A stretch of DNA of 64,000 nucleotides from Gluconacetobacter asukensis. Its GTDB lineage: Bacteria; Pseudomonadota; Alphaproteobacteria; Acetobacterales; Acetobacteraceae. Shown piece after piece: positions 27,254 to 46,365 of the stretch. The position numbers and the translations under genes are program-made. Every line of letters starts with the position of its first letter. Position 1 is the stretch's first letter. The DNA is taken from contig NZ_JABEQE010000002.1 of assembly GCF_014174375.1 (NCBI RefSeq), positions 248,001 to 312,000 of the forward strand, in the 5' to 3' direction. The notes beneath the pieces were generated by a model. The model was not told where the DNA came from. It did not search any database and was given only the letters and a program-made list of their open reading frames with translations.

Positions 27254-27873
27254 CTTCGTCAAGGACCCATCGCACCGCGTTGCAGCCCCAGCGCGCGGTC
27301 GGCCGCCAGCGGGTGGCGGACCTGCTGGTGGCGGCATCCGACCTGATCGCCGAACACGGATACGAGGCAACGACCATGGCCGCGATCGCGAAACGGGCGG
27401 GCGCCCGGGTCGGGTCGCTCTATCGTTTTTTCCCGAACAAGGAGGCGATCGCCGATACCCTGCTGCACCAGCATCTCGACATACTGCGCGAGGCGTATGA
27501 CGCGCTCGGCCAGCGCGCGGCCGGCGCCACGCCCGAGGAACTGGCCGATCTCCTGATCGATCTGCTGACCACGCTCTATCCGCGCGTGAAATCGCTTCCC
27601 GCCCTGATGGATGTCCGCACCGACCGGACCGAACTCAGCCGGCAGTCACGGGCCACGGCGCTGGGCGGTATTTCCGCCGCGCTGATCGCCTGCGCGCCGA
27701 AGCTGGACCGGCAGGAGGCCGACGATATCGCGACCGTGATGCTCAACAGCATGAAGACGATGCTGGGCATGGCCCTGAAGACCGTGCCGACATCGCCGGG
27801 CGCGCCGGCCGAACTGCGCCTGATGAACCGGCTCTACCTCGCAGCCCGATTGACGCCGTTGCGGTCGGGATAA
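27244..27873 (+). CDS. TetR-family transcriptional regulator
   Basis: 209 residues from the ATG at 27244, which lies inside a palindromic operator. The helix-turn-helix is at about residues 20-65 (LLVAASDLIAEHGYEATTMAAIAKRAGARVGSLYRFFPNKEAI). The C-terminal ligand domain is of the TetR_C variety with a conserved Pro/Arg segment (LPALMDVRTDRTEL). It probably represses itself and the divergent isochorismatase-MFS operon through the TTGAG-N6-CTCAA sites. The gene's last 40 bp overlap the end of the opposite-strand beta-lactamase-like gene. Confidence 0.92.
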   Translation: MCSTSSRTHRTALQPQRAVGRQRVADLLVAASDLIAEHGYEATTMAAIAKRAGARVGSLYRFFPNKEAIADTLLHQHLDILREAYDALGQRAAGATPEELADLLIDLLTTLYPRVKSLPALMDVRTDRTELSRQSRATALGGISAALIACAPKLDRQEADDIATVMLNSMKTMLGMALKTVPTSPGAPAELRLMNRLYLAARLTPLRSG

Positions 27874-28775
27874 GGCGCGGCCCGGCGATGATAGGCCGCG
27901 AAGACGGTCTCCGAAATGGCGTTCAGCACCTTGATGCCCGCCGCTTCATCAGGCAGGTCGCGGCTCAGTTCCACCAGGATATAGTGCGCCCCGTTCGGCA
28001 GGAAGACGATCGCGGCATCGTTGCGCACGCCATGGACCCACCCGGTCTTGTGGGCCACCGGCGTGCCTGCGGGCAGGCCGGGCGGGATGATGTCGTTGAA
28101 GGTCTGGCCGAGCATGACGCCGATCATCGCCCGGCTCTCGGCAGGGCCGACGATGGCACCATGGTCGAGCTTCTGCAGGAACCCACCCAGCCCGCGCGCG
28201 GTGACCCGATTGCGAATACCCTCCGCGTCGGCATCGAAATCCTCGATCATGCGGCCGAAGACAATGCCCTCCAGCCCCTGCCGCGCGACGACGGCACGGA
28301 TCGGCATCACACCCAGCCGCTCGATCATCAGATTGGTGGCAAGGTTGCTGCTGTACTGGATCATCACCCGCAGCAGCTCGGTCACGGTGACGGACCTGCC
28401 GGCCTGGGCATAAAGCGGATCGTAGGAATCCTCTTTCTGGTCCAGCGAAAAGCTGCGCGTACCGACCAGCGAATGGAAGCGGTTATGGACGGTAACCGCT
28501 TCGTCCGGCTTCAGCGTACCGTCGCGGAAGGCAGCATAGGCGGCATCGAGGACAAGGAGCTTGATGGTGCTGGCGGCATTGATGGGTTCGTCACAGCGCA
28601 GGCACACATCCGGCGCCTGTCCCGACGGCGCGGCATAGACGGCAAATGCCCCCGGCTGGCCGGCGGTAATCCGCGCGACCGAATCCGCCAGAGCCTCCGC
28701 GCGGGCCGGCCGGGCCGCCGCGACCAGAAAAGCCAGCGCGCACAGGGCAGCGCCGCCGCATGTCAGAAAGCGCAT
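27834..28775 (-). CDS. Class A beta-lactamase-like serine hydrolase, exported
   Basis: A periplasmic penicillin-interacting serine hydrolase with a signal peptide (cut after ARPARA). I use the ATG at 28775 (313 residues); a TTG at 28811 would extend it. Catalytic motifs: SxxK as STIK (Ser69, Lys72), an SxN loop as YSSN, and KTG as HKTGW (243-245). The Omega-loop Glu166 pattern (ExxLN) of true class A lactamases is not evident; the segment reads EGIVFGRMIED. It may therefore be slow on beta-lactams or act as a DD-peptidase. A candidate minus-strand promoter (TTGGTA-18-TATAAC, 28832-28861) has a LysR-type palindrome centred about 64 bp upstream of its start. Confidence 0.82.
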   Translation of the reverse strand: MRFLTCGGAALCALAFLVAAARPARAEALADSVARITAGQPGAFAVYAAPSGQAPDVCLRCDEPINAASTIKLLVLDAAYAAFRDGTLKPDEAVTVHNRFHSLVGTRSFSLDQKEDSYDPLYAQAGRSVTVTELLRVMIQYSSNLATNLMIERLGVMPIRAVVARQGLEGIVFGRMIEDFDADAEGIRNRVTARGLGGFLQKLDHGAIVGPAESRAMIGVMLGQTFNDIIPPGLPAGTPVAHKTGWVHGVRNDAAIVFLPNGAHYILVELSRDLPDEAAGIKVLNAISETVFAAYHRRAAPYPDRNGVNRAAR

Positions 28776-28882
28776 TCCGGATAGCGGCACGTTCGATCTC
28801 CTCGCCGGCAAATTCGTCTCGTTATGAAAAGGTTATAATCTTCGTTTCCCGATCATACCAATTCACCGAGGTTCTTGCGGGT

Positions 28883-28989: not shown

Positions 28990-30237
28990 ATGGATACAGG
29001 CAGGATTCTTTCGCGCCGAGGCGTGTTCGCAGGCGGGGCCGCCCTGGGCGCGGTCACGATGATGGCGGGCGAACGCGTGCTGCTGCCGCATGCCGCATCG
29101 GCAGGGGATGCCCTGGCCCCACAGCACCGGCCCCGGCTGGCACCGCTGCATCCGCGCGTGGACCAGATCACCGACATCAAGGTCTGTATCCGGCCGTTTC
29201 GCGCCGCCGGCCCAAGGCTGGATGTCGAGCGGATCGGGGACAAGACAATCTTCCATAATTACGGCCATGGCGGCAGCGGCTGGTCCCTGTCCTGGGGTTC
29301 GGCCAATCTGGTGGTCGGCAAGGTCGCGGCGACACTGAACCGCAGGGTCGCCGTCATCGGCTGCGGCATCGTCGGACTGACGGCCGCGCTGACGGCGCAG
29401 CGCGCGGGCTTCGACGTGACGATCTATACGCGCGACCTGCTGCCGCACACACGCTCGGTCCGCGCCAACGGAAGCTGGACGCCGGATTCCCGGGTCGCGC
29501 TGACCCAGACCGCCGGTCCCGCCTTCGCCGACCAGTGGGAGCAGATGGCGCGATTCTCATGGGCCACCTACCGGACCTATCTCGGCCTGCCCGGCGCGCC
29601 GATCATGTTCGAGGATAATTACATCCTCTCGGACAAGCCCTTCGACGACAAGCCGCCACCTGCCCCGCCCGCCGGCGCTCCCGGGAGAATGCCGCGCGCA
29701 ACGGAAGATTTCGCAATCTATGAAAGCAGGATCAGCGACATCGTCCCGGCGGTCGAGGATATTCCGGAAGCGGAAAACCCGTTCGCCGCGCCGCACGCGC
29801 GGCGCCAGTCGCTGATGATCTACAATTTCGGCGCCTATGGCCATCTGCTGCTGTCGGAGTTCCATCAGGCCGGCGGCCGCATCGTCATCCGCGAATTCCA
29901 CAGCCCGCAGGATCTGACATCATTGCCCGAGAAGGTGATCATCAACTGTCCCGGCTACGCGGCGCGGGACTGGTGGCGCGATGACAGCCTGATTCCCGTC
30001 CGGGGCCAGACGGCGTGGCTACCGCCCCGGCCTGAGGCACCCTACGGCCTCGATTACCGGGGCGCGGCCCTGCTGTCGAAGACCGACGGCGTGATGATCC
30101 AGGCCGTCGATCTCGACGGGCTGGGCGAGATGACGGGCGTGGGCAATTCCTTCGAACATCCCGACCCGACGGAGGCCGCACGCGCCATCGGCGTATTCGC
30201 CGACCTGTTCGCGCGCATGCCAATGGTGGGCGGGTGA
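28990..30237 (+). CDS. Tat-exported FAD oxidoreductase, circularly permuted D-amino-acid oxidase-like
   Basis: 415 residues from the ATG at 28990. A twin-arginine signal is visible (SRRGVF, residues 8-13, then a hydrophobic stretch). The mature part starts with segments that belong at the C-terminus of ordinary D-amino-acid oxidases: IRPFR (68-71, the substrate-carboxylate Arg region) and HNYGHGGSGWSLSWG (89-103). Only then comes the FAD dinucleotide-binding motif GCGIVGL (124-130), normally at the N-terminus. The C-terminus ends where the ordinary protein would continue into its RPxR segment, so the fold looks circularly permuted. A cytochrome c gene follows 4 bp later, suggesting electrons go to the respiratory chain rather than oxygen. 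Confidence 0.82.
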   Translation: MDTGRILSRRGVFAGGAALGAVTMMAGERVLLPHAASAGDALAPQHRPRLAPLHPRVDQITDIKVCIRPFRAAGPRLDVERIGDKTIFHNYGHGGSGWSLSWGSANLVVGKVAATLNRRVAVIGCGIVGLTAALTAQRAGFDVTIYTRDLLPHTRSVRANGSWTPDSRVALTQTAGPAFADQWEQMARFSWATYRTYLGLPGAPIMFEDNYILSDKPFDDKPPPAPPAGAPGRMPRATEDFAIYESRISDIVPAVEDIPEAENPFAAPHARRQSLMIYNFGAYGHLLLSEFHQAGGRIVIREFHSPQDLTSLPEKVIINCPGYAARDWWRDDSLIPVRGQTAWLPPRPEAPYGLDYRGAALLSKTDGVMIQAVDLDGLGEMTGVGNSFEHPDPTEAARAIGVFADLFARMPMVGG

Positions 30238-30241
30238 CCTG

Positions 30242-30652
30242 ATGATGCGGATCAAAGACATGATAACCCGCAGCGTGACCGCCTTCGCGCTCGGCCTCGC
30301 CCTTCTGCCCGGCCCGGCCCCGGCACGGCCGCCTGCCGCCAGCACGGCCTGCACCGAACTGGCGCACGGCGCGGACCTCTATCGCGCAGCCTGCGCGATG
30401 TGCCATGGCGCACGGCTGGACGGGAATTTCGAAACCCCGGCACTGACCGGCCGCTTTGTCGCCAACTGGGCAGGCGCACCGGTTTCGGCGCTTGAGGCCT
30501 ATGTCCATCGGGCCATGCCGCTGATGGCACCGGGCACATTGTCGCCGGACGATACACGGGCGATCGTCGCGTTCCTGCTGGAGGCGAACAACCTCCCGCA
30601 GGGCAAGACCGTGCGCGTCGGGGTGCGGAAGGCGCTGGCCTGTCCATCGTAG
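30242..30652 (+). CDS. Periplasmic cytochrome c (class I)
   Basis: 136 residues with a signal peptide (about 1-29) and one heme c site, CAMCH (Cys51, Cys54, His55), preceded by GADLYRAAC as in class I cytochromes. The axial Met is probably in MPLMAPGTLSPDD. It starts 4 bp after the oxidoreductase stop and almost certainly takes electrons from that flavoprotein. The last residues (LACPS) contain an extra Cys. Confidence 0.92.
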   Translation: MMRIKDMITRSVTAFALGLALLPGPAPARPPAASTACTELAHGADLYRAACAMCHGARLDGNFETPALTGRFVANWAGAPVSALEAYVHRAMPLMAPGTLSPDDTRAIVAFLLEANNLPQGKTVRVGVRKALACPS

Positions 30653-30821: not shown

Positions 30822-31712
30822 ATGCGCCTGCGCCAGATCGAAGTCTTCTACGCGATCATGACGACGGGCTCGCTACGGCGTGCCGCCGAAGTTCTGCATG
30901 TCTCGCAGCCGGCCGCGAGCAAGGTGCTGCGCTACGCCGAACAATCGCTGGGGTTTGCACTGTTCGAGCGGGCAGGCGGCCGGCTGGTGCCGACGCGCGA
31001 GGCGCGGATCATGCTGCCGCATGTGAATGCCATTTTCGAAAAACTGTCGGACCTCAAACGCCTGACCGACAATCTGCGCTATGCGCGCGACGGGCATTCG
31101 ATCAGCATCGGGTGCGTGCCGAGCCTGGGGTTGAGCCTGGTGCCGCGCGTGGTGCAACGGTACCGCGCCGACCACCCGGGCATGGAACTGACGATCGACG
31201 CGCTGCACGGCACCGAAATCGTGTCGCATATCCTCAACCATGATCTCGACCTCGGGATCGTGTTCGGCGATTACACGCGCGACGGGCTGACCGCGCTGCA
31301 TATCGCCGATATTCCGCTGCTGATGATCGACGGCCAGGGCGGGGAGGGTCCCGTCAGCCTCGCCGCGATCGATCCGGCGCGCTATATCGGCCTGAGCGAG
31401 AACGATCCCACGGCCCGCCTGCTCGACATGGCGTTGGACGAGGCAGGGATTCCGGCCGCGGCCCCGGTGCGGGTACGCACCCATTTCATGGCGGCCGAAC
31501 TCGTGCGCCTCGGCGGGGGCTGCGCCATCGTGGACGCCCTGACCGCGCTGCATCACCCGGGCCTGCCCCGGCCGCGCCCGCTCTCTCCGCCGCTGAGCGT
31601 GACCTGCACCGTCCTGTTCCGCGCCGACCACGCGCTGTCGCACATCTCGCAGAGTATTCTTGCCTTGTTGCGGAGCGAACTGGAAATCGATCTGGCCACC
31701 CTGGTGGCATGA
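30822..31712 (+). CDS. LysR-family transcriptional regulator
   Basis: 296 residues, full length. The winged helix-turn-helix is at the N-terminus (MRLRQIEVFYAIMTTGSLRRAAEVLHVSQPAASKVLRYAEQ), followed by the linker helix and a periplasmic-binding-protein-like effector domain starting near SISIGCVPSLGLSL. Three palindromes of the LysR T-N11-A type (28883-28895, 31726-31738, 33611-33623) lie ahead of neighbouring hydrolase and amino-acid-oxidation genes, so it is the likely local regulator. Effector unknown; a D-amino acid is a reasonable guess. It lies between two direct copies of repeat R2. Confidence 0.94.
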   Translation: MRLRQIEVFYAIMTTGSLRRAAEVLHVSQPAASKVLRYAEQSLGFALFERAGGRLVPTREARIMLPHVNAIFEKLSDLKRLTDNLRYARDGHSISIGCVPSLGLSLVPRVVQRYRADHPGMELTIDALHGTEIVSHILNHDLDLGIVFGDYTRDGLTALHIADIPLLMIDGQGGEGPVSLAAIDPARYIGLSENDPTARLLDMALDEAGIPAAAPVRVRTHFMAAELVRLGGGCAIVDALTALHHPGLPRPRPLSPPLSVTCTVLFRADHALSHISQSILALLRSELEIDLATLVA

Positions 31713-31853: not shown

Positions 31854-33473
31854 ATGATCCAGCGTTTCCGACATTCATGCATGATGGCCGTCTCGGCGGT
31901 CGCTCTCCTGTCCGCGCCTTGCGCAACCCGCGCGGCATCGTTGCCGCCGGGACTGACGGAGCAGACAATCGGCACGACGGTCGAACGCGCCCGGCAGGCC
32001 TTCGACGTTCCCGGCATCGCTGTGGCGGTGGTGCAGGACGGACAGATCGTGTTCAGCCACGGCTATGGACGCCGGGCGGAGGACAAGGCCAGCGCGCCGG
32101 TCGACGGGCGCACCCTGTTCGCCATCGGCTCCAACACCAAGGAATTCACCGCGACGGCGCTGGCGCTTCTGGTCGATCAGGGCAAGCTGGACTGGGACGA
32201 CCGCGTCATCGACCATATGCCGGATTTTCGCGTCGCCGATCCGTCGATCACGCGGGATTTCCGCGTGTCGGACCTGCTGACCCACCATAGCGGCATGGGT
32301 CAGGGTGCCGGGGACCTGATGCTGTTCTCGCACAGTACGCTGACGCGGCCGGAAATCCTCGCGGGCCTTCCCTTCATGCCCTTCACGGCGCCATTCCGCA
32401 CCCAGTACGCCTATAACAATCTTCTGTATGTCGTGGCCGGCGCGCTGGTCGAACGGCTGACGGGGCAAAGCTGGGAAGATGTGGTCCAGAAGCGCCTGAT
32501 CGACGCGGCGGCCCTGCCGGCCTGCCAGAGCACGCCCCCCGTCAGGGGCCAGACGAACGTGGCCACCGGCGAGGGCGAAAGCGGCATCCTGCCCGACAAG
32601 GCATCGCGCCGGCTGCCTGGCGTGGCCCCCGCCGGCGGCATCTGGTGCAGCGTGGACGGCATGGCCCGCTGGGCCCAGACCTATCTCAATGGCGGCCGCA
32701 CGCCGGACGGCAAACAGGTCTTCAGCCAGGCCAGCCGCGACGCGCTATGGGCACCGCATGCACTGCTGCCCCTGCCCGATACGGCGGAGGCGACCAGGAC
32801 CCATTTCCGTGCCTATGGCTATGGCTGGTTCATGGAGGATTTCTTCGGCCACAAGCGCGTCTGGCATACCGGGACCATCGACGGCATGGTCAGCTACGTG
32901 ACCTTCCTGCCGGAGTTGAAGACCGGCATCGTCATCCTGACCAACCATGACGACCATAACGCCACCTATTCCATCGCGACCACGCTGAGCGCCTATGCCG
33001 CAACCGGCACCAGCGCGGACTGGGTCACGCACTGGCACGACGCGGAGAACGCCAAACGCGCGGCAGAGGCAAAGGCGGCCACCAGCACCGGCCCCGGCTC
33101 GCCCGCGCGTCCCTTCATCACACTGTCCGAAAGCACGCAGCAGGACTATGTCGGCACCTATCGCGACGATTGGCGCGGCCCGATCACCATAAGCCGACGC
33201 GGGCAGGACCTGCGGATGGCGTTCAGCCACACCGATGGCCTGACCGGAACACTCTCGGCCCTGCCGCACGATCTGTTCGTGGTCCGGTGGGACGATCGCG
33301 GGCAGGATGGTGGCGACGATGCCTATGTGCAGTTCGAACGCGATGTCTCGGGCAACGTAATCGCGATGAGCATGCGCCTGATCGGGTCCGATTTCAGCTT
33401 CGATGCACAGGATCTGCATCCGAAGAAAGTAAGTTCTTCTTTTGATGAAGAAAAAGAAGCAAAAGGGCTTTAA
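31854..33473 (+). CDS. Class C beta-lactamase-type serine hydrolase / D-aminopeptidase-like, exported
   Basis: 539 residues with a signal peptide (about 1-28). The penicillin-binding fold motifs are present: SxxK as SNTK (Ser93, Lys96), YxN as YNN (187-189) and HTG (338-340). A C-terminal lipocalin-like domain (about 410-520, QQDYVGTYRDDWRGPITI) follows, as in many esterase/D-aminopeptidase relatives. AGGA lies 7 bases before the ATG. Relatives act as D-aminopeptidases, DD-peptidases or esterases. The last 13 or so residues (SSSFDEEKEAKGL) are encoded by the dispersed repeat R2, so the native stop was probably replaced by repeat insertion. Confidence 0.9.
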   Translation: MIQRFRHSCMMAVSAVALLSAPCATRAASLPPGLTEQTIGTTVERARQAFDVPGIAVAVVQDGQIVFSHGYGRRAEDKASAPVDGRTLFAIGSNTKEFTATALALLVDQGKLDWDDRVIDHMPDFRVADPSITRDFRVSDLLTHHSGMGQGAGDLMLFSHSTLTRPEILAGLPFMPFTAPFRTQYAYNNLLYVVAGALVERLTGQSWEDVVQKRLIDAAALPACQSTPPVRGQTNVATGEGESGILPDKASRRLPGVAPAGGIWCSVDGMARWAQTYLNGGRTPDGKQVFSQASRDALWAPHALLPLPDTAEATRTHFRAYGYGWFMEDFFGHKRVWHTGTIDGMVSYVTFLPELKTGIVILTNHDDHNATYSIATTLSAYAATGTSADWVTHWHDAENAKRAAEAKAATSTGPGSPARPFITLSESTQQDYVGTYRDDWRGPITISRRGQDLRMAFSHTDGLTGTLSALPHDLFVVRWDDRGQDGGDDAYVQFERDVSGNVIAMSMRLIGSDFSFDAQDLHPKKVSSSFDEEKEAKGL

Positions 33474-33706: not shown

Positions 33707-34927
33707 ATGGCCGGCAGACGGAGCATTACCATCATCGGCGGGGGCGTCATCGGTCTCACCGCCGCCTACACCCTGGCCCGAGAGGGGCACGACGTCACGC
33801 TGATCGAGCGCCGCGAGGATGTCGGGCAGGAAGCCAGTTTCGCGAATGGCGGGCAACTCAGCTACCATTATGTCACCCCGCTGGCCGATGCCGGTGTAGC
33901 GCGCGACGCTCTGGGCTGGCTGCTGCGCCGGCATGCGCCGATTTCGCTGCGGCTGCGGGCCGATCCGCATCAATGGCGCTGGCTGCTCGGCTTTCTGGGC
34001 GCATGCAACCGGCGCACCAATCGCAAGAATGCCGCCATCCTGCTCGATCTTGCCCTGAGCGGCCAGGCGGGACTCCAGACATGGCGCAATGCCGGACTGG
34101 ACGATTTCCTGTGGCGCCGCCCCGGAAAGCTGGTTCTGTATCGCAATCCTTCGCAATTCCGCAAAGCGGCGCACACCATTACCGACCCGGAACGGCAACA
34201 CACGCTGTCGCCCTCCGAATGCACGGCGATCGAACCTGCATTCGCCGGCCTGCAATCGCGGCTCGCGGGCGGGATCTTCTCGCCCGAGGACGAGGTCGGC
34301 GACTGTTTCCTGTTCTGCACGGCACTGCACAAGGCGCTGGCGGCGGAGCCGGGTTTTCGCCTTGTGCGTGGGCAGGCCGAACTCCGCCCCGGCTCGGGCG
34401 ACCGGTGCGCCCTTGCTGTCAATGGCAGACCGTTCGAGACCGACCTCGTCATCCTCGCGGCGGGCATCGCCTCCCGCGCGCTGGCACGGCCGCTGGGGAT
34501 CGACCTGCCGCTTTACGGCCTGAAGGGGTACAGCCTCACCACGCGGCCGCAACCCGGCACTCTGCCTTCGGTCAGCGTGACGGATTACGACAATCGCGTG
34601 GTCTATGCCGGGCTGGGCGACCGGCTGCGGGCGGCCGCGATGGTCGATATCGGGGCGGAAGACACCGTGCCCACCCCCCGACGCCTGGCCGAACTGCGCG
34701 CACTGGTGGCGGAGACGCTGCCGGGCGCATTCGGACAGGGCGAGGATACGCCCTGGGCCGGCCTGCGCCCGGCGACGCCAACCGGCGTGCCGGTCATCGG
34801 GCGCACCCGGTATGCCAATCTGCTGCTCAATGTCGGGCATGGCGCCCTCGGCTTCACGCTGTCGGTCGGCTCGGCGCTGCGGCTGAAAGAGATCGTGGCC
34901 GGGGTCGATGCCCAGGCCATCAGGTAA
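33707..34927 (+). CDS. D-amino-acid dehydrogenase-like FAD oxidoreductase (DadA type)
   Basis: 406 residues. The N-terminal FAD motif is SITIIGGGVIGLTAAYTLAREGHDVTLIERRE. DadA-like features follow (ASFANGGQLSYHYVTPLAD; C-terminal GLRPATPTGVPVIGRT and NVGHGALGFTLSVGSA). The enzyme would deaminate D-amino acids to 2-oxo acids, passing electrons to the quinone pool at the inner face of the membrane. No dadX racemase is adjacent. It is followed by the penicillin-acylase-family gene 31 bp later, as part of the same operon. Confidence 0.92.
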   Translation: MAGRRSITIIGGGVIGLTAAYTLAREGHDVTLIERREDVGQEASFANGGQLSYHYVTPLADAGVARDALGWLLRRHAPISLRLRADPHQWRWLLGFLGACNRRTNRKNAAILLDLALSGQAGLQTWRNAGLDDFLWRRPGKLVLYRNPSQFRKAAHTITDPERQHTLSPSECTAIEPAFAGLQSRLAGGIFSPEDEVGDCFLFCTALHKALAAEPGFRLVRGQAELRPGSGDRCALAVNGRPFETDLVILAAGIASRALARPLGIDLPLYGLKGYSLTTRPQPGTLPSVSVTDYDNRVVYAGLGDRLRAAAMVDIGAEDTVPTPRRLAELRALVAETLPGAFGQGEDTPWAGLRPATPTGVPVIGRTRYANLLLNVGHGALGFTLSVGSALRLKEIVAGVDAQAIR

Positions 34928-34958
34928 CGAGCCATCAGGTAAGGAGGAAGAGGTCTTG

Positions 34959-37346
34959 ATGCAGGCAACCCGTCGTGCGGTTCTTCTTGGCGGCGTCGCC
35001 GCGACCCTGTCCATTCCGATGCGCGGTGCCGGGGCCGCCCCCGTGCCGGCGGGCCTCGCCGGGCTCGACGGGCCGGTCGAGATTCTGGAAGATCGCTGGG
35101 GCGTGCCCCATGTACGGGCCCGGACCATCCCGGACGCCTTCTTCGCCGACGGGTATCTGGTGGCGCGGGACCGGCTGTGGGAACTGGATTTCGGCCACCG
35201 CCGCTCACTGGGCCGGCTGGCCGAAATTTTCGGCTCGGCGTTCGTGCCCTCCGACACCGCCAACCGGCTGGTGCTGTTCCGGGGCGATGCCGATCGGGAA
35301 CTCGCAGCCTTTCCATCGCTGGTGCAGGACTGCGCACGCGCCTATGTCGCCGGGATCAACGCACGGATCGCCGAGGTGACGGCCACGCCATCACTGCTGC
35401 CGCCGGAATTCGCCATCTTCGCCTGCACGCCGCTGGAATGGGATGTCCTGGACCTGATCCGCATGCGCGCCGAAGTCGCGGGCAACACCCGCACCGAGAT
35501 CCGCCGGGCGCGGCTGGCGGCACGGGGGGCACTGGCCTACGACGCCCTCGTGACACCACTGGAGCCGGCCCATGTGCCCCGCGTGCCGGACGGTCTGGAT
35601 GTGGCGGCGGTGACCGAAGCCGATCTCGGACTGTTCGGCGTGTTGCAGGCCCCCCTGCCGCTGCACGGCCTGCACGCGGCGGCCGATAACGAGACAAGGC
35701 GGCGCAACGAGGGCAGCAATGCCTGGGTCATCGCCCCCACCCGCACCGCGACCGGGCGGCCCATCCTGGCGAACGATCCGCATCTGGGATTCGGCGCGCC
35801 GGGTCCGCGCCATGTCGTGCATCTGACGGCGCCGGGGCTGGATGTGATCGGCGGCGGCTCGCCGGGCATGCCGGGCGTCATGCAGGGCCACAACGCACGG
35901 ATCGCCTTCGGGCGCACGAACTTCCATATCGATCAGGAAGATCTGTTCATCCTGCGCACCGATCCGGATGACCCGCTGCGCTATGCCCACCAGGGCGGCT
36001 GGAAGCGGATGGAGCAGGTCGAGACACGGATCGCGGTGCGTGGCGAGGCCGAGCGGGTGGTGAGCCTGTTCTATTCCGTGCACGGGCCGGTGGTGGCGCG
36101 GGACCCGGCCCGGCACCGCGCGACGGCGGTTTCGGCCACCTGGCTGGCCCCCGGCGCGAACGGCATGCTGGCCAATATCGGCATCGACCTCGCCCATGAC
36201 TGGGCCAGTTTCCGCGAGGCGCTGCGGGTCCATACCAGCCCCACCAACTTCACCTATGCCGATATCGACGGGAATATCGGCTGGCAGGCCGCCGGCGGCC
36301 TGCCCCATCGCGCCGACGGCCATGACGGGCTGCTGCCCGCGCCGGGCGACGGGCGATACGACTGGCAGGGTCTGCAACCGCTGGAGGCACTGCCCAGCAG
36401 CTTCAACCCCGCGCTGGGCTGGTTCGGCACCTCCAACGAGATGAACCTGCCCCCGGACTACCCGGCCGAGGAACGGCGCGTCAGCTTCGAATGGCGCGAC
36501 CGCTTCCGCCACGAGCGCGTGGCCCAGATGCTGGACGCGACCCCACGTGCGACCCTGGCGGACAGCGTGGCGCTGCAGCATGACACGCTGTCCGTGCTGG
36601 CCTTGCAGATGGTGCGGCTGCTGCCCGACATGCCGCCCGCCCTGGCCGCCGAGGCCGCGCTGCTGCGCGCATGGAACGGCCGCGTCGACGCCGACAGCGC
36701 GGCGGCGGCGCTGTATGAAGTCTGGTGGACGCGGCTGGAACGCGCGCTGCACGCGCTGATCATCCCTCCGTCCCTGCACGACCTGCTGCCCGGTCCGGTC
36801 AACGCCACGGTGCAGCTTTCCCTGTTCCAGTCGCCCGATTCCCGGTTCGGCGCCGACCCGGCGCAGGCCCGGGACAGGATGCTGGCCGACACGTTCGGCG
36901 CGGCAGTGGCCGAACTGCGCGAGCGGCTGGGTCCCCTGCCGGCCGCCTGGCGATGGGGCGCGCTGCACACCATCACCCTGCGCCATTCCCTGGCCGGCGT
37001 CCCGGCCGTGGCGGCGGCCTTTCCCGCCATTGGCGGCCCGGAAGCGGAAAGCGGCGGCGACCCGTACACCGTCATGGCCCGCTGGTACACCCCGATGGCG
37101 GGCGCGGCGCACGCCTATGCCGCGACCGGCGGGGCAAGCTACCTGATGGTGTGCGATGTCGGAGACTGGGACCGCTCCCTGTACCTCAATTTCCCCGGCC
37201 AGTCGGCCGACCCGCAGTCGCCGCATTACGCCGATTTCCTGCCCGTCTGGCTGCGGGGCGCGATGCAGAAACTGACCTTCAGCCCACGCAGCGTCGACGC
37301 GGCCACGATCCGGCGACTGACCCTTCAGCCGAAGCAGCAGCGATGA
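34959..37346 (+). CDS. Penicillin acylase family Ntn hydrolase, exported
   Basis: 795 residues from the ATG at 34959 (GAGG upstream). The N-terminus looks like a Tat-type signal (TRRAVLLGGVAATLS). The order is alpha chain, spacer and beta chain, with the autocatalytic cleavage before Ser253 in EGSNAWV; the new N-terminal Ser is the nucleophile. NDPHLGF shortly after is the usual oxyanion/substrate segment. Family members hydrolyse amides: penicillins, cephalosporins or N-acyl-homoserine lactones. Specificity cannot be decided from sequence. It overlaps the next small reading frame by ATGA. Confidence 0.93.
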   Translation: MQATRRAVLLGGVAATLSIPMRGAGAAPVPAGLAGLDGPVEILEDRWGVPHVRARTIPDAFFADGYLVARDRLWELDFGHRRSLGRLAEIFGSAFVPSDTANRLVLFRGDADRELAAFPSLVQDCARAYVAGINARIAEVTATPSLLPPEFAIFACTPLEWDVLDLIRMRAEVAGNTRTEIRRARLAARGALAYDALVTPLEPAHVPRVPDGLDVAAVTEADLGLFGVLQAPLPLHGLHAAADNETRRRNEGSNAWVIAPTRTATGRPILANDPHLGFGAPGPRHVVHLTAPGLDVIGGGSPGMPGVMQGHNARIAFGRTNFHIDQEDLFILRTDPDDPLRYAHQGGWKRMEQVETRIAVRGEAERVVSLFYSVHGPVVARDPARHRATAVSATWLAPGANGMLANIGIDLAHDWASFREALRVHTSPTNFTYADIDGNIGWQAAGGLPHRADGHDGLLPAPGDGRYDWQGLQPLEALPSSFNPALGWFGTSNEMNLPPDYPAEERRVSFEWRDRFRHERVAQMLDATPRATLADSVALQHDTLSVLALQMVRLLPDMPPALAAEAALLRAWNGRVDADSAAAALYEVWWTRLERALHALIIPPSLHDLLPGPVNATVQLSLFQSPDSRFGADPAQARDRMLADTFGAAVAELRERLGPLPAAWRWGALHTITLRHSLAGVPAVAAAFPAIGGPEAESGGDPYTVMARWYTPMAGAAHAYAATGGASYLMVCDVGDWDRSLYLNFPGQSADPQSPHYADFLPVWLRGAMQKLTFSPRSVDAATIRRLTLQPKQQR

Positions 37347-37432
37347 ATCCGCCAGGCACCTCTCCATCATTCACCCGTGCCGAGGACGAGATCTTCACCG
37401 CCCTCGCCGGAGCCGGAAAGCAAGCCGCATGA
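37343..37432 (+). CDS. Small coupled reading frame (29 aa)
   Basis: A 29-codon frame whose start overlaps the penicillin-acylase stop (ATGA) and whose stop overlaps the start of the S9 peptidase (ATGA). The peptide is hydrophilic and ends in AGKQAA; no family is recognised. The double overlap suggests translational coupling through this region. It may be a genuine small protein or merely a relay that carries ribosomes to the next gene. Confidence 0.4.
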   Translation: MNPPGTSPSFTRAEDEIFTALAGAGKQAA

Positions 37433-39516
37433 CCGTCCGATCCTCCCTTCTTGCCGCCTCCCTTCTTGCTGGCACGATGCTGCTGGCTGCCTCCATCCTC
37501 CCGGCACGCGCCGCACCGGCGGAGGACGGAACCCGCCTGGCCGGCCTGCTGGCGATGCCCTATGCCAACGGCCTGACCGGCGCCGCCGGCGCGCCGCGCG
37601 TGGCTTGGGTGGAGCGCCGGGACGGCGTGCGCAATATCCTGGTCTCGGACGGCGGCGCGGCGCCCCGCCGGGTGACGGCGTACACGAAGGATGACGGGAC
37701 CGACCTGTGGGGGCTCGCCCTCAGCCCCGACGGACGGATGCTCGCCTTCGTCGAGGGAGGCGACGCGGAATATCCCGACGATGCACCACCGAACGCCGGC
37801 AATGCGCCGGTTCCCGGAAAGCAGACGGTGCGCGTCGTCCTGCCCGACGGGCGGATCGTCACGGCGGGGGAAGGGCATGCGCCCACCTTCTCGCCGGACG
37901 GGCACCTGCTGGCCTTCGCGCATGGCGGCACATTGCTGGTCGGCAGGGCCGGCGGCGCCCCCAAAGCAGTGCTGACGACGCGGGGAGCGATTACCGCCCT
38001 GCACTGGTCGCCGGACGGCGCGCGGCTGGCGATCGAAATCGATCGCGGATCGCATGATGTGATCGCCTTGTGGCAGGAGAAGTCCGGCGATGAAGCGCCC
38101 GTCTTCCTGCCCGCCGCCCTGGCTCATGACCAGATGCCGGCCTTCTCGCCCGACGGGCGCTCCATCGCCTTCCTGCGGGTGCGCAAGCCCCTGCCGACGG
38201 CGGAGCGCGGGAAGGGGCGCTTCTGGTCGATACAGGTCTATGACATCGCGACCGGCACGGAGCGCACACTCTGGACAGCGCCGGAAGGGGCGGGAAGCCG
38301 CTTCTGGGCGCCGGAAGATGTCGGGCTGGCATGGACGGGCGACGGCCGGCTGCTCTTTCCGTGGGAAGGCAGCGGCTGGCTGCGGCTGTGCGCGCTCACG
38401 ACCGCCGCCACGCCGGCGGAACCGCGCTGCCTGACGCCGGACGGCGCCGAAATCGCGTCCTACCGCCTGTCGCCGGACGGCACACGCCTGCTCTATACGG
38501 CGAATGCCGGCGACGTGGACCATTGGCGCGCCTGGTCGCAGCCGCTCGACGGCGGCCCGGCCAGCCCGCTGACCGGCGAGGACGAGCAGGTCATGGACCT
38601 GACGACCGCCGGTCCGGCCATCGCGGTCATGGCCACGGGCGTCACCATGCCAGCCCATCCTGTGGTGCTGCAGGGCGGGACACGGCGGGTCCCGGTCGAA
38701 CCCGCCGCCCCGGCCGGCTTCGCCTTCGTCACGCCCCGGATCGTCCATGTCCGTGGCGAGGACGGACGCGACATCCACGGGCAATTGTTCCTGCCGCCGG
38801 CCGGAACAGCGGGTCCGCACCCGGCACTGGTCTTCGTCCATGGCGGGCCGAGGCGGCAGATGCTGCCGGCCTTCAACCCGATGGGCTATTATTCCAACGC
38901 CTACATCATGAACCAGGTGCTGGCGGCACGGGGCTATGTCGTCCTGTCGGTGAATTATCGCAGCGGCACCGGCTATGGCCTGGCCTTCCGCGATGCGCCC
39001 GGCATCGGGCGGGCCGGCGCCAGCGAATATGGCGACGCGCACGCAGCCGGGCTCTACCTGCGCGCGCGCTCCGATGTGGTACCGGGCCGGATCGGGATCT
39101 GGGGCGGAAGCTGGGGCGGCTACCTGACGGCGCTGGCCCTGGCCCGCGACAGCAGCCTGTTCGCGGCCGGCGCCGATTTCCACGGCGTGCACGACCTGAC
39201 CAAGGCCAGCCATCCCGGCCTGTCGCCCGAGGAGAGGCAGCAGGCGCAGGAGATCGAATGGCGCTCGTCACCAGCCGCCGATATCGCGCACTGGCGCGCC
39301 CCGGTGCTGCTGATCCACGGGGATGACGACCGTAATGTGGACTTCGAACAATCCGTCCTGCTGGCCAACCTGCTGACGGCGCACGGCGTACCGTTCGAGG
39401 ATCACACCTTCCCCGGCGAGCGCCACGCCTTTCTCCGCACGCAGGACTGGCTCACCGCCTATCTGTGGACCCTGCGCTTTCTCGACGCCCATCTGCAGGC
39501 CGGGCACGCGCCGTAA
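37429..39516 (+). CDS. S9 family serine peptidase (acylaminoacyl-peptidase/prolyl oligopeptidase type), exported
   Basis: 695 residues. A signal peptide (about 1-28, cut near ARA-APAEDG) sends it to the periplasm. Residues about 60-430 form a beta-propeller with WD-type repeats (SPDGRMLAFVE, SPDGHLLAFAHGG, SPDGTRLLYTA), and the C-terminal alpha/beta-hydrolase has the nucleophile in GIWGGSWGGYL (Ser561), the Asp near 634 (HGDDDRNV) and the His near 666 (GERHAF). It would remove residues or acylated residues from short peptides. Its start overlaps the upstream 29-codon frame, so it belongs to the DadA-acylase operon. It converges with the histidine kinase. Confidence 0.93.
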   Translation: MTVRSSLLAASLLAGTMLLAASILPARAAPAEDGTRLAGLLAMPYANGLTGAAGAPRVAWVERRDGVRNILVSDGGAAPRRVTAYTKDDGTDLWGLALSPDGRMLAFVEGGDAEYPDDAPPNAGNAPVPGKQTVRVVLPDGRIVTAGEGHAPTFSPDGHLLAFAHGGTLLVGRAGGAPKAVLTTRGAITALHWSPDGARLAIEIDRGSHDVIALWQEKSGDEAPVFLPAALAHDQMPAFSPDGRSIAFLRVRKPLPTAERGKGRFWSIQVYDIATGTERTLWTAPEGAGSRFWAPEDVGLAWTGDGRLLFPWEGSGWLRLCALTTAATPAEPRCLTPDGAEIASYRLSPDGTRLLYTANAGDVDHWRAWSQPLDGGPASPLTGEDEQVMDLTTAGPAIAVMATGVTMPAHPVVLQGGTRRVPVEPAAPAGFAFVTPRIVHVRGEDGRDIHGQLFLPPAGTAGPHPALVFVHGGPRRQMLPAFNPMGYYSNAYIMNQVLAARGYVVLSVNYRSGTGYGLAFRDAPGIGRAGASEYGDAHAAGLYLRARSDVVPGRIGIWGGSWGGYLTALALARDSSLFAAGADFHGVHDLTKASHPGLSPEERQQAQEIEWRSSPAADIAHWRAPVLLIHGDDDRNVDFEQSVLLANLLTAHGVPFEDHTFPGERHAFLRTQDWLTAYLWTLRFLDAHLQAGHAP

Positions 39517-43148: not shown

Positions 43149-45050
<1,902 letters not shown>

Positions 45051-45154: not shown

Positions 45155-45240
45155 CCATTGCATGACTGACAGGGCCGCATTCCGGCCGGCGCAACGATGC
45201 TCCGGTCTGTCGCGAAGCGGTCCCGCCAATGAGGACCATG

Positions 45241-46365
45241 ATGGCCACCAAGCTTGATTACTACGCCGTACTTGAAGTCTCCCGCGATGCGAATGGCGAC
45301 GAGGTGAAGAAGGCGTATCGCAGGCTGGCCATGCAGTACCATCCGGACCGCAATCCCGGCGACGCGTCGGCCGAGGCCCGGTTCAAGGACATCAGCGAAG
45401 CCTACGATGTCCTGAAGGACGACCAGAAGCGCGCCGCCTACGACCGGTTCGGCCATGCGGCGTTCGAGGGCGGCGGCCCCGGCGCCGGCGGCTTCGATTT
45501 TGGCGGCGGGCTGGGCGACATCTTCGAGCAGATGTTCGGCGACATGATGGGCGGCCGCCGCAGCGGCCGCCGGTCGGGCAGCGACATCCAGGTCCAGATC
45601 TCGATTTCCTTCACCGAGGCATTTTCGGGCGTCAAGAAGCCCATCACGGTGCCGACGCGCGTGGCATGTGAATCCTGCGACGGCACCGGCTCGGCCGACC
45701 GCGACCAGGGGGCCGAGACCTGCCCGACCTGCCACGGCGCGGGCAAGGTGCGCGCACAGCAGGGCTTCTTCTTGGTCGAGCGTGCCTGCCCGACCTGCCA
45801 TGGCGCGGGCAAGGTGGTGCGCAACCCCTGCACCGCCTGCCGCGGCACCGGCACGGTCGAGCGCGACCGGACGCTGGAAATCGCGATCCCGGCCGGAGTC
45901 GAGGATGGCACCCGCATCCGCCTGTCGGGCGAGGGCGAGGCCGGCGGCAAGGGCGCCCAGCCGGGCGACCTGTATGTGCATATTGCGGTCGAGCCGCACC
46001 CGATCTTCCAGCGCGACGGGGCGAACATCTATTGCCGGGTGCCGCTGCGCATGACCCAGGCCGCCCTGGGCACCGAGGTCGAGGTCCCGGTCGTCGACGG
46101 GTCCCGCGCCAAGGTGAAGGTGCCCGCCGGCACCCAGACCGGCGAGAATTTCCGCCTGCGCGGCAAGGGGTTCTCGGTCCTGCGCTCTTCCGCGCGGGGG
46201 GATATGTATATCCAGGTTTCGGTCGAGACACCGCATCACCTGACCAAGCGCCAGCGCGAATTGCTGGAGGAGTTCGAGGCCGAGGCCGACGACCACGCGC
46301 GCGCCAATCCGGAGAATACGGGCTTCTTCAGCAAGGTCCGCGATTTCTTCGAAGGCAAGCTCTGA
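45241..46365 (+). CDS. dnaJ: Molecular chaperone DnaJ (Hsp40)
   Basis: 374 residues from the ATG at 45241 (GAGGA just upstream; ATGs at 45229 and 45238 are in frame). The J-domain has HPD in MQYHPDRNPGD, followed by a Gly/Phe-rich region (GGGPGAGGFDFGGGLG). The zinc-finger domain has four CxxCxGxG repeats (CESCDGTG, CPTCHGAG, CPTCHGAG, CTACRGTG), then the C-terminal substrate-binding domains. It is a full type I DnaJ. Confidence 0.98.
   Translation: MATKLDYYAVLEVSRDANGDEVKKAYRRLAMQYHPDRNPGDASAEARFKDISEAYDVLKDDQKRAAYDRFGHAAFEGGGPGAGGFDFGGGLGDIFEQMFGDMMGGRRSGRRSGSDIQVQISISFTEAFSGVKKPITVPTRVACESCDGTGSADRDQGAETCPTCHGAGKVRAQQGFFLVERACPTCHGAGKVVRNPCTACRGTGTVERDRTLEIAIPAGVEDGTRIRLSGEGEAGGKGAQPGDLYVHIAVEPHPIFQRDGANIYCRVPLRMTQAALGTEVEVPVVDGSRAKVKVPAGTQTGENFRLRGKGFSVLRSSARGDMYIQVSVETPHHLTKRQRELLEEFEAEADDHARANPENTGFFSKVRDFFEGKL

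Follow-up and report, generated by a model that had tools for sequence, protein, structure and literature searches.

Sequence evidence for a circularly permuted D-amino-acid oxidase order beside a cytochrome c gene in Gluconacetobacter asukensis

The 64,000-nt stretch of the Gluconacetobacter asukensis genome analysed here (the window; contig NZ_JABEQE010000002.1, positions 248,001 to 312,000) contains a gene for a putative FAD oxidoreductase in which motifs of the C-terminus of D-amino-acid oxidase (DAAO) lie near the N-terminus. This raises the question whether the parts of a DAAO have changed places in this protein and, if so, what role it may have beside a cytochrome c gene. DAAO is a flavoenzyme known from textbooks, with applications in medicine and industry. 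The fold is known; this order, the permuted family and its pairing with a cytochrome c, all reported below, appear to be undescribed. Among the open-licence papers listed in literature searches, none seemed to deal with a natural permuted DAAO; PMC8102297 has a heterologous DAAO as its subject.

Order of the two DAAO pieces

The features of the gene, all on the forward strand, are as follows.

28990..30237, +, permuted DAAO-like FAD oxidoreductase, 415 amino acids, ATG at 28990; PF01266 and swapped-order DAAO matches
28990..29103, +, twin-arginine signal region, residues 1-38 (MDTGRILSRRGVF...AASA), read from the sequence; putative cleavage site
29167..29337, +, moved segment, residues 60-116, equivalent to the DAAO C-terminus (RPFR strand, HNYGHGGSGWSLSWG, helix); profile match and model
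29191..29202, +, RPFR, residues 68-71; R68 in the same column as the first RPxR Arg of DAAO
29254..29298, +, HNYGHGGSGWSLSWG, residues 89-103; sequence and conserved columns
29338..30234, +, residues 117-415, FAD Rossmann and substrate domain, corresponding approximately to pig DAAO 1-269 (VIA-align)
29359..29376, +, GCGIVG dinucleotide-binding glycine motif, residues 124-129; G124, G126 and G129 invariant

The sequence-only reading of this DNA had proposed that RPFR and the HNYGHGG segment precede GCGIVG, and this is the order that we find: residues 68-71 and 89-103, with HNYGHGG at 89-95, stand upstream of the FAD motif at 124-129. The PF01266 DAO domain covers residues 119-400 (E 1.4e-20; 74.6 bits against a cut-off of 27.9). 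Downstream of the FAD motif neither RPxR nor HxYxHGG was found in the window protein, which ends with ...FARMPMVGG. A second segment at the C-terminus had been named as evidence against the proposal; none was present in the window protein or in the other permuted ORFs collected, among which no intermediate carrying the segment at both ends was seen.

To place both parts of the protein on known DAAOs, PDB sequences were searched. The window protein alone matched the fungal DAAO 7ct4 (E 7.2e-10) in two pieces, residues 65-116 on chain positions 325-376 with 29.2 bits and residues 118-342 on positions 24-240, the latter weak when taken alone (7.4 bits). With a profile made from an alignment of 19 relatives (A1), 20 distinct PDB sequences were obtained at E<=1e-6, 17 of them DAAO or D-aspartate oxidase (DASPO), and 16 of these 17 showed two significant stretches. 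Both of the alignments displayed (two sequences) had the swapped order. The best match was again 7ct4 (E 5.7e-41), with profile positions 107-384 on 19-303 (85.5 bits) and 54-112 on 320-378 (56.3 bits). No permuted member was found among the PDB sequences matched at this threshold, the order having been seen in two. The three matches other than DAAO or DASPO shared the Rossmann motif only (37-38 bits) and were set aside. As the two-piece match to 7ct4 was already obtained with the single query, and both pieces became strong in the same swapped order with the 19-row profile, we do not attribute it to chance.

For a rearrangement test, the 19 A1 sequences were put into ordinary order and profiles were built in both orders, to be compared with six ordinary DAAOs (five from Acidobacteriota genomes, and 7ct4). 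Under the native-order profile all six aligned in two or three out-of-order pieces, and under the rearranged profile all six aligned in one unbroken piece that began at position 2-6 and ended at 346-348 of 350. The summed bits barely differed between the rearranged and the native profile (for example 180.1 vs. 179.7, and 148.0 vs. 141.1 for 7ct4), and un-permuting the single window sequence gave no higher score in the PDB search (40.1 bits vs. 41.5 for the native order). Both of these results count against our reading. The latter, from the single sequence, is also the sole point in favor of a view without any permutation, in which HNYGHGG near the N-terminus would have arisen by chance, would be an unrelated motif or would stem from faulty annotation. 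Against this view, homology spans the whole moved segment, the 143 ORFs described in the next section are collinear over more than 300 profile positions, the order is conserved across phyla and a second copy is lacking; already contradicted by the profile matches, it seems to us scarcely credible. Both pieces are homologous to one DAAO, they are swapped, and each is present once. Judged by its sequence, the window gene is thus a naturally circularly permuted form of the DAAO order.

Structure prediction, which the sequence-only reading had called for, gave a DAAO-like core. The AlphaFold2 model of the window protein had a mean pLDDT of 84.3 and a pTM of 0.83, with pLDDT below 50 at residues 1-46 and 413-415 and block means of 93-98 for residues 51-120, moved segment included. 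Secondary structure predicted for this segment comprises strands at 62-71, 79-82 and 85-89 and a helix at 94-112. Human DAAO ranked first in Foldseek (E 1.1e-13). VIA-align placed model residues 118-409 on residues 1-269 of pig DAAO (1kif_A) with Z 19.6, 250 residues, rmsd 2.8 A and 22% identity, and its best chain was human D-aspartate oxidase (Z 20.7). From this alignment, the chain ends approximately where pig DAAO continues into the RPxR strand, in agreement with the C-terminus proposed earlier. The structural alignments reported cover residues 118-409, residues 60-116 falling outside the aligned range; homology and model confidence suggest that the moved segment would pack at the DAAO-like place.

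Compared with DAAO and DASPO (pig 1kif, human 6rkf, Rasamsonia emersonii 7ct4), the window protein shares the FAD core, the RPxR Arg, HNYGHGG, homology in two pieces and the fold of residues 118-409, but differs in having the pieces swapped, a twin-arginine signal, a lost Tyr and GGT (see below) and a cytochrome c partner gene. DadA, which is FAD-dependent and linked to the respiratory chain, performs a job similar to the one that we propose for the window protein, yet the DadA-type match (PRK00711) to the latter is limited to residues 119-161 (31.7 bits, cut-off 383).

Extent and descent of the permuted family

Relatives were sought in 84,980 species genomes with a pattern that also fits ordinary DAAOs. 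At least 590 stretches matched and at least 566 of them are relatives, the order being read in the best 80 of these, the loci most like the window protein. In all 80 a HNYGHGG-type motif lies ahead of the core, and in 76 the glycine motif follows it by about 35 residues, the other four being outside the pattern. From the loci collected, 143 ORFs (duplicates included) were collinear with the A1 profile in permuted order; beyond these we obtained one permuted ORF cut by a contig end, five ordinary-order DAAO-like ORFs and six Rossmann-only matches. The window gene is hence no one-off but belongs to a large family. Its own genome encodes a permuted paralogue with 67% identity (L172; G000:C7:109261-110511).

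In Pseudomonadota, where four candidates were scored per genome, 20 of 398 genomes gave a match at E<=1e-12, and all 21 matches were in permuted order. Permuted forms occurred in 10 of 149 Acidobacteriota genomes and ordinary forms in 6. Actinomycetota were represented by one record, Nonomuraea gerenzanensis (L130), with a permuted form that has no obvious signal peptide. A permuted protein, again with no obvious signal peptide, is encoded on the Bradyrhizobium elkanii plasmid pK03D-1 (L131:3935-4987), which is typed as conjugative. There the gene sits between an FAD-binding oxidoreductase gene and a ThDP-dependent decarboxylase-like gene; the latter comes next after the permuted gene, and its product is similar to indolepyruvate/phenylpyruvate decarboxylase (207 bits vs. 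a cut-off of 554.5) and would use a 2-oxo acid. Relatives in permuted order were also seen on three IMG/VR contigs (L184:3886-4980, L185:3536-4630 and L183:1414-2451). Of five matches in plasmid records, the three that are annotated carry just the label 'FAD-dependent oxidoreductase', so that the family is easily overlooked.

For the tree, 69 chosen permuted rows were rearranged to ordinary order and combined with six ordinary rows, using a quick method. Six permuted rows with variable motifs fell outside the first cutting pattern and were treated by a looser rule; five of these six, plus L142, were chosen or available. Permuted and ordinary rows lie on opposite sides of one branch with SH-aLRT 99, and the permuted rows form three groups, A with 49 rows (including the window protein), B with 16 and C with 4. 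The Acidobacteriota ordinary-order proteins (L167-L171) share segments and motifs with the permuted family but differ from it in their ordinary order and in their position across this branch. The tree is consistent with one permutation event, with thin sampling of ordinary forms and long branches. A natural permutant kept across phyla indicates that the DAAO fold can be re-cut and yet maintained, and the family provides an existing permuted scaffold on which engineering could build.

Active site, probable export and the putative cytochrome c partner

In DAAO a hydride is transferred directly from the substrate alpha carbon to flavin N5, and the substrate carboxylate is held by the Arg of RPxR. 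The corresponding R68, the first Arg of the motif and presumably the counterpart of pig R283, is kept in all rows of groups A (49/49), B (16/16) and C (4/4) and in all six ordinary rows, which makes the same reaction likely in the window protein. H89, G92, H93, G94 and G95 are identical in 75 of 75 rows; the Y91 column has F in one B row, and one A row carries L in place of the second RPxR Arg. HNYGHGG at 89-95 fits H-[NHA]-Y-G-x-G-G, a pattern that we take to be the DAAO signature.

Other columns set group A apart. At the position of the DAAO active-site Tyr (which we assume to be pig Y228; Y in 7ct4), Y is present in 5/6 ordinary, 4/4 C and 11/16 B rows, the other five B rows having H. Within the 49 rows of group A the commonest residues are S (23), Y (6), N (6) and A (3), and the window protein has A360. 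Likewise GGT, with S for T in few rows, is kept in ordinary, B and C rows and lost in group A; the window protein has Q371-A372-V373 at these columns. Group A has invariants of its own, C66, W98, S167 and R168 (49/49 each). These columns indicate that group A keeps the carboxylate anchor in a remodelled pocket, B and C being nearer to plain DAAOs.

The loss of GGT and of the DAAO Tyr in group A, and the invariants peculiar to this group, mean that the protein may act on something other than a plain D-amino acid. A permuted DAAO fold with another substrate, such as a dipeptide, an ester of an amino acid, or an amino acid that is modified, cyclic, N-acylated or N-alkylated, would agree with the loss of the Y228 equivalent in most and of GGT in all of the 49 A rows, with the mostly DAAO-like state of B and C, and with the acylase and hydrolase genes adjoining the window gene. 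What speaks against a different substrate is R68 itself, invariant in group A, together with the DadA-like protein and the amino-acid-releasing types of enzyme encoded next door. We consider this alternative unlikely, though not negligible; with the carboxylate-binding Arg kept, D-amino acids are the likely substrates.

As for location, Tat export of folded, cofactor-loaded proteins is normal. The twin-arginine signal noticed earlier could be verified: SRRGVF stands at residues 8-13, and R9 and R10 are nearly invariant in the 19 rows of A1. RRx[FLMVIAW] occurs inside the first 45 residues in 75 of the 80 best loci, in 44 together with a lipobox, both counts leaning upward since starts in these loci were picked to favour RR. 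From these sequence features the window protein is probably exported.

The gene is followed by its putative partner:

30242..30652, +, cytochrome c, 136 amino acids, one CxxCH (CAMCH), signal-peptide-like N-terminus; PF13442, E 3.6e-11

Four bases lie between the stop of the window gene and the cytochrome c ATG at 30242, as had been pointed out, and the pairing is conserved throughout one clade. Cytochrome c is the next gene in 15 of the 80 best loci, eight of these 15 with a 4-base overlap. Gene calls in the relatives were mechanical and missed 11 of the 80 focal genes; the cytochrome c counts come from a separate scan, and a tblastn cross-check of the 80 loci returned the same 15. On the tree the pairing marks one clade, spanning Acetobacteraceae and sphingomonads, in which it is present in 16/16 rows as opposed to 0/53 other permuted rows, which amounts to one change. 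With duplicates included, cytochrome c is directly downstream of 28 of 144 permuted ORFs. No CxxCH, as expected of a fusion with cytochrome c, was found in the 143 permuted ORFs. The paralogue L172 has a cytochrome c gene of its own and is without the hydrolase/DadA set described below. At one locus outside the paired clade (L058), a cytochrome c gene and an L-amino-acid-oxidase-like gene lie just upstream. At L056 a PF07969 amidohydrolase gene follows cytochrome c.

The adjoining gene suggests cytochrome c as the electron acceptor. The matched PDB relatives carry oxidase names, however, and 116 of the 144 permuted ORFs (duplicates included), exported ones among them, have no cytochrome c directly downstream, as would be expected if the permuted fold were an ordinary oxygen-using oxidase and cytochrome c were used otherwise or only partly. 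We regard such an oxidase as rather improbable, given cytochrome c as the next gene in every row of a clade that unites Acetobacteraceae and sphingomonads and given the overlapping genes in about half of the paired loci. Confinement of the pairing to one clade makes the choice between oxidase and dehydrogenase testable inside one family.

Neighbouring genes and proposed role

The genes around the permuted gene and cytochrome c are the following.

27834-28811, -, class A beta-lactamase-fold protein; PF13354, 85.8 bits vs. a class A beta-lactamase cut-off of 200
30822..31712, +, LysR-type regulator; PF03466 and PF00126; conserved neighbour
31854..33473, +, serine hydrolase of beta-lactamase/D-aminopeptidase fold; PF00144 and DUF3471, below every NCBIfam cut-off; conserved neighbour
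33707..34927, +, DadA-like D-amino acid dehydrogenase in ordinary order; PRK00711, 363.8 bits, cut-off 383; conserved neighbour
34908..37346, +, penicillin-acylase family protein; PF01804, E 3e-184; conserved neighbour
37429..39516, +, S9-family peptidase; PF00326; also beside the permuted gene in Kozakia

Among six loci with a close orthologue, the LysR-hydrolase-DadA-acylase set adjoins the permuted gene in the four same-genus loci examined, and the divergent gene at 27834-28811 is kept beside it in the same-genus loci, four examined. In Kozakia the LysR, hydrolase, DadA-like and S9 genes are present, and a match to the acylase was not found. The same set also lies beside a different permuted lineage in Gluconobacter wancherniae, where LysR is partly within the examined stretch, and G. 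albidus (loci L104 and L111). This Gluconobacter lineage is 41-42% identical, belongs to another branch of the tree and has no cytochrome c gene directly downstream. The occurrence of two permuted lineages beside one gene set argues for a functional link.

Recurring neighbours in other lineages (regulators, helicase, ABC transporter and the like) gave few clear links. RidA hydrolyses imino acids, and 7 of the 80 best loci have a RidA homologue no more than 6 kb away, with a signal-like N-terminus in those read; L-amino-acid-oxidase-like genes are near the permuted gene in 3 of the 80, in both cases in sphingomonads and relatives. In four Dyella loci the next gene is a PF00144 serine hydrolase (domain tested in L108) that is 26-30% identical to that of the window. 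Seven loci, six from the Xanthomonas group and one from Caulobacter, have an amino acid permease gene at a distance of about 3 kb (domain tested in L123). The DadA-like, hydrolase and acylase neighbours, and elsewhere the RidA and L-amino-acid-oxidase-like ones, fit periplasmic amino-acid oxidation.

Considering the locus as a whole, the best explanation, to which we assign a probability of about 0.6, is a permuted DAAO fold exported by the Tat system that oxidises amino acids with cytochrome c as acceptor. The protein would begin with the elements that close a DAAO, namely a strand, a glycine-rich turn and the last helix, and these would run straight into the FAD Rossmann core, the new C-terminus being the point at which an ordinary DAAO enters the RPxR strand. 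The two pieces should together make up one DAAO-like domain with FAD between them, and the Tat system would export the folded protein with FAD bound. In the periplasm an amino acid bound by R68, most probably a D-amino acid or close analogue, would lose a hydride from its alpha carbon, and the imino acid produced would be hydrolysed to a 2-oxo acid. In the cytochrome-paired clade the flavin would probably be re-oxidised by the adjoining cytochrome c rather than by oxygen. Such a protein points to an undescribed periplasmic route by which acetic acid bacteria and sphingomonads would oxidise amino acids.

A broader history can be sketched more tentatively, and we hold it as possible without favouring it: one ancient permutation of a DAAO may have founded a large bacterial family, one branch of which remodelled the pocket, and an inner clade of that branch may have exchanged oxygen for a dedicated cytochrome c. 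Its partners in periplasmic amino-acid oxidation would then be a RidA imine hydrolase or an L-amino-acid-oxidase-like enzyme, each of them exported, or else a set of D-peptide/acyl-amino-acid hydrolases.

Further along the window, a reverse-strand reading frame at 43092-44765 matches PF10712, 'NAD-specific glutamate dehydrogenase' (E 1.9e-193). It is antisense to a 633-amino-acid ORF at 43149-45050 on the forward strand, beside dnaJ at 45229-46365, and PF10712 here is probably a spurious family that arose from the antisense strand of dnaK.
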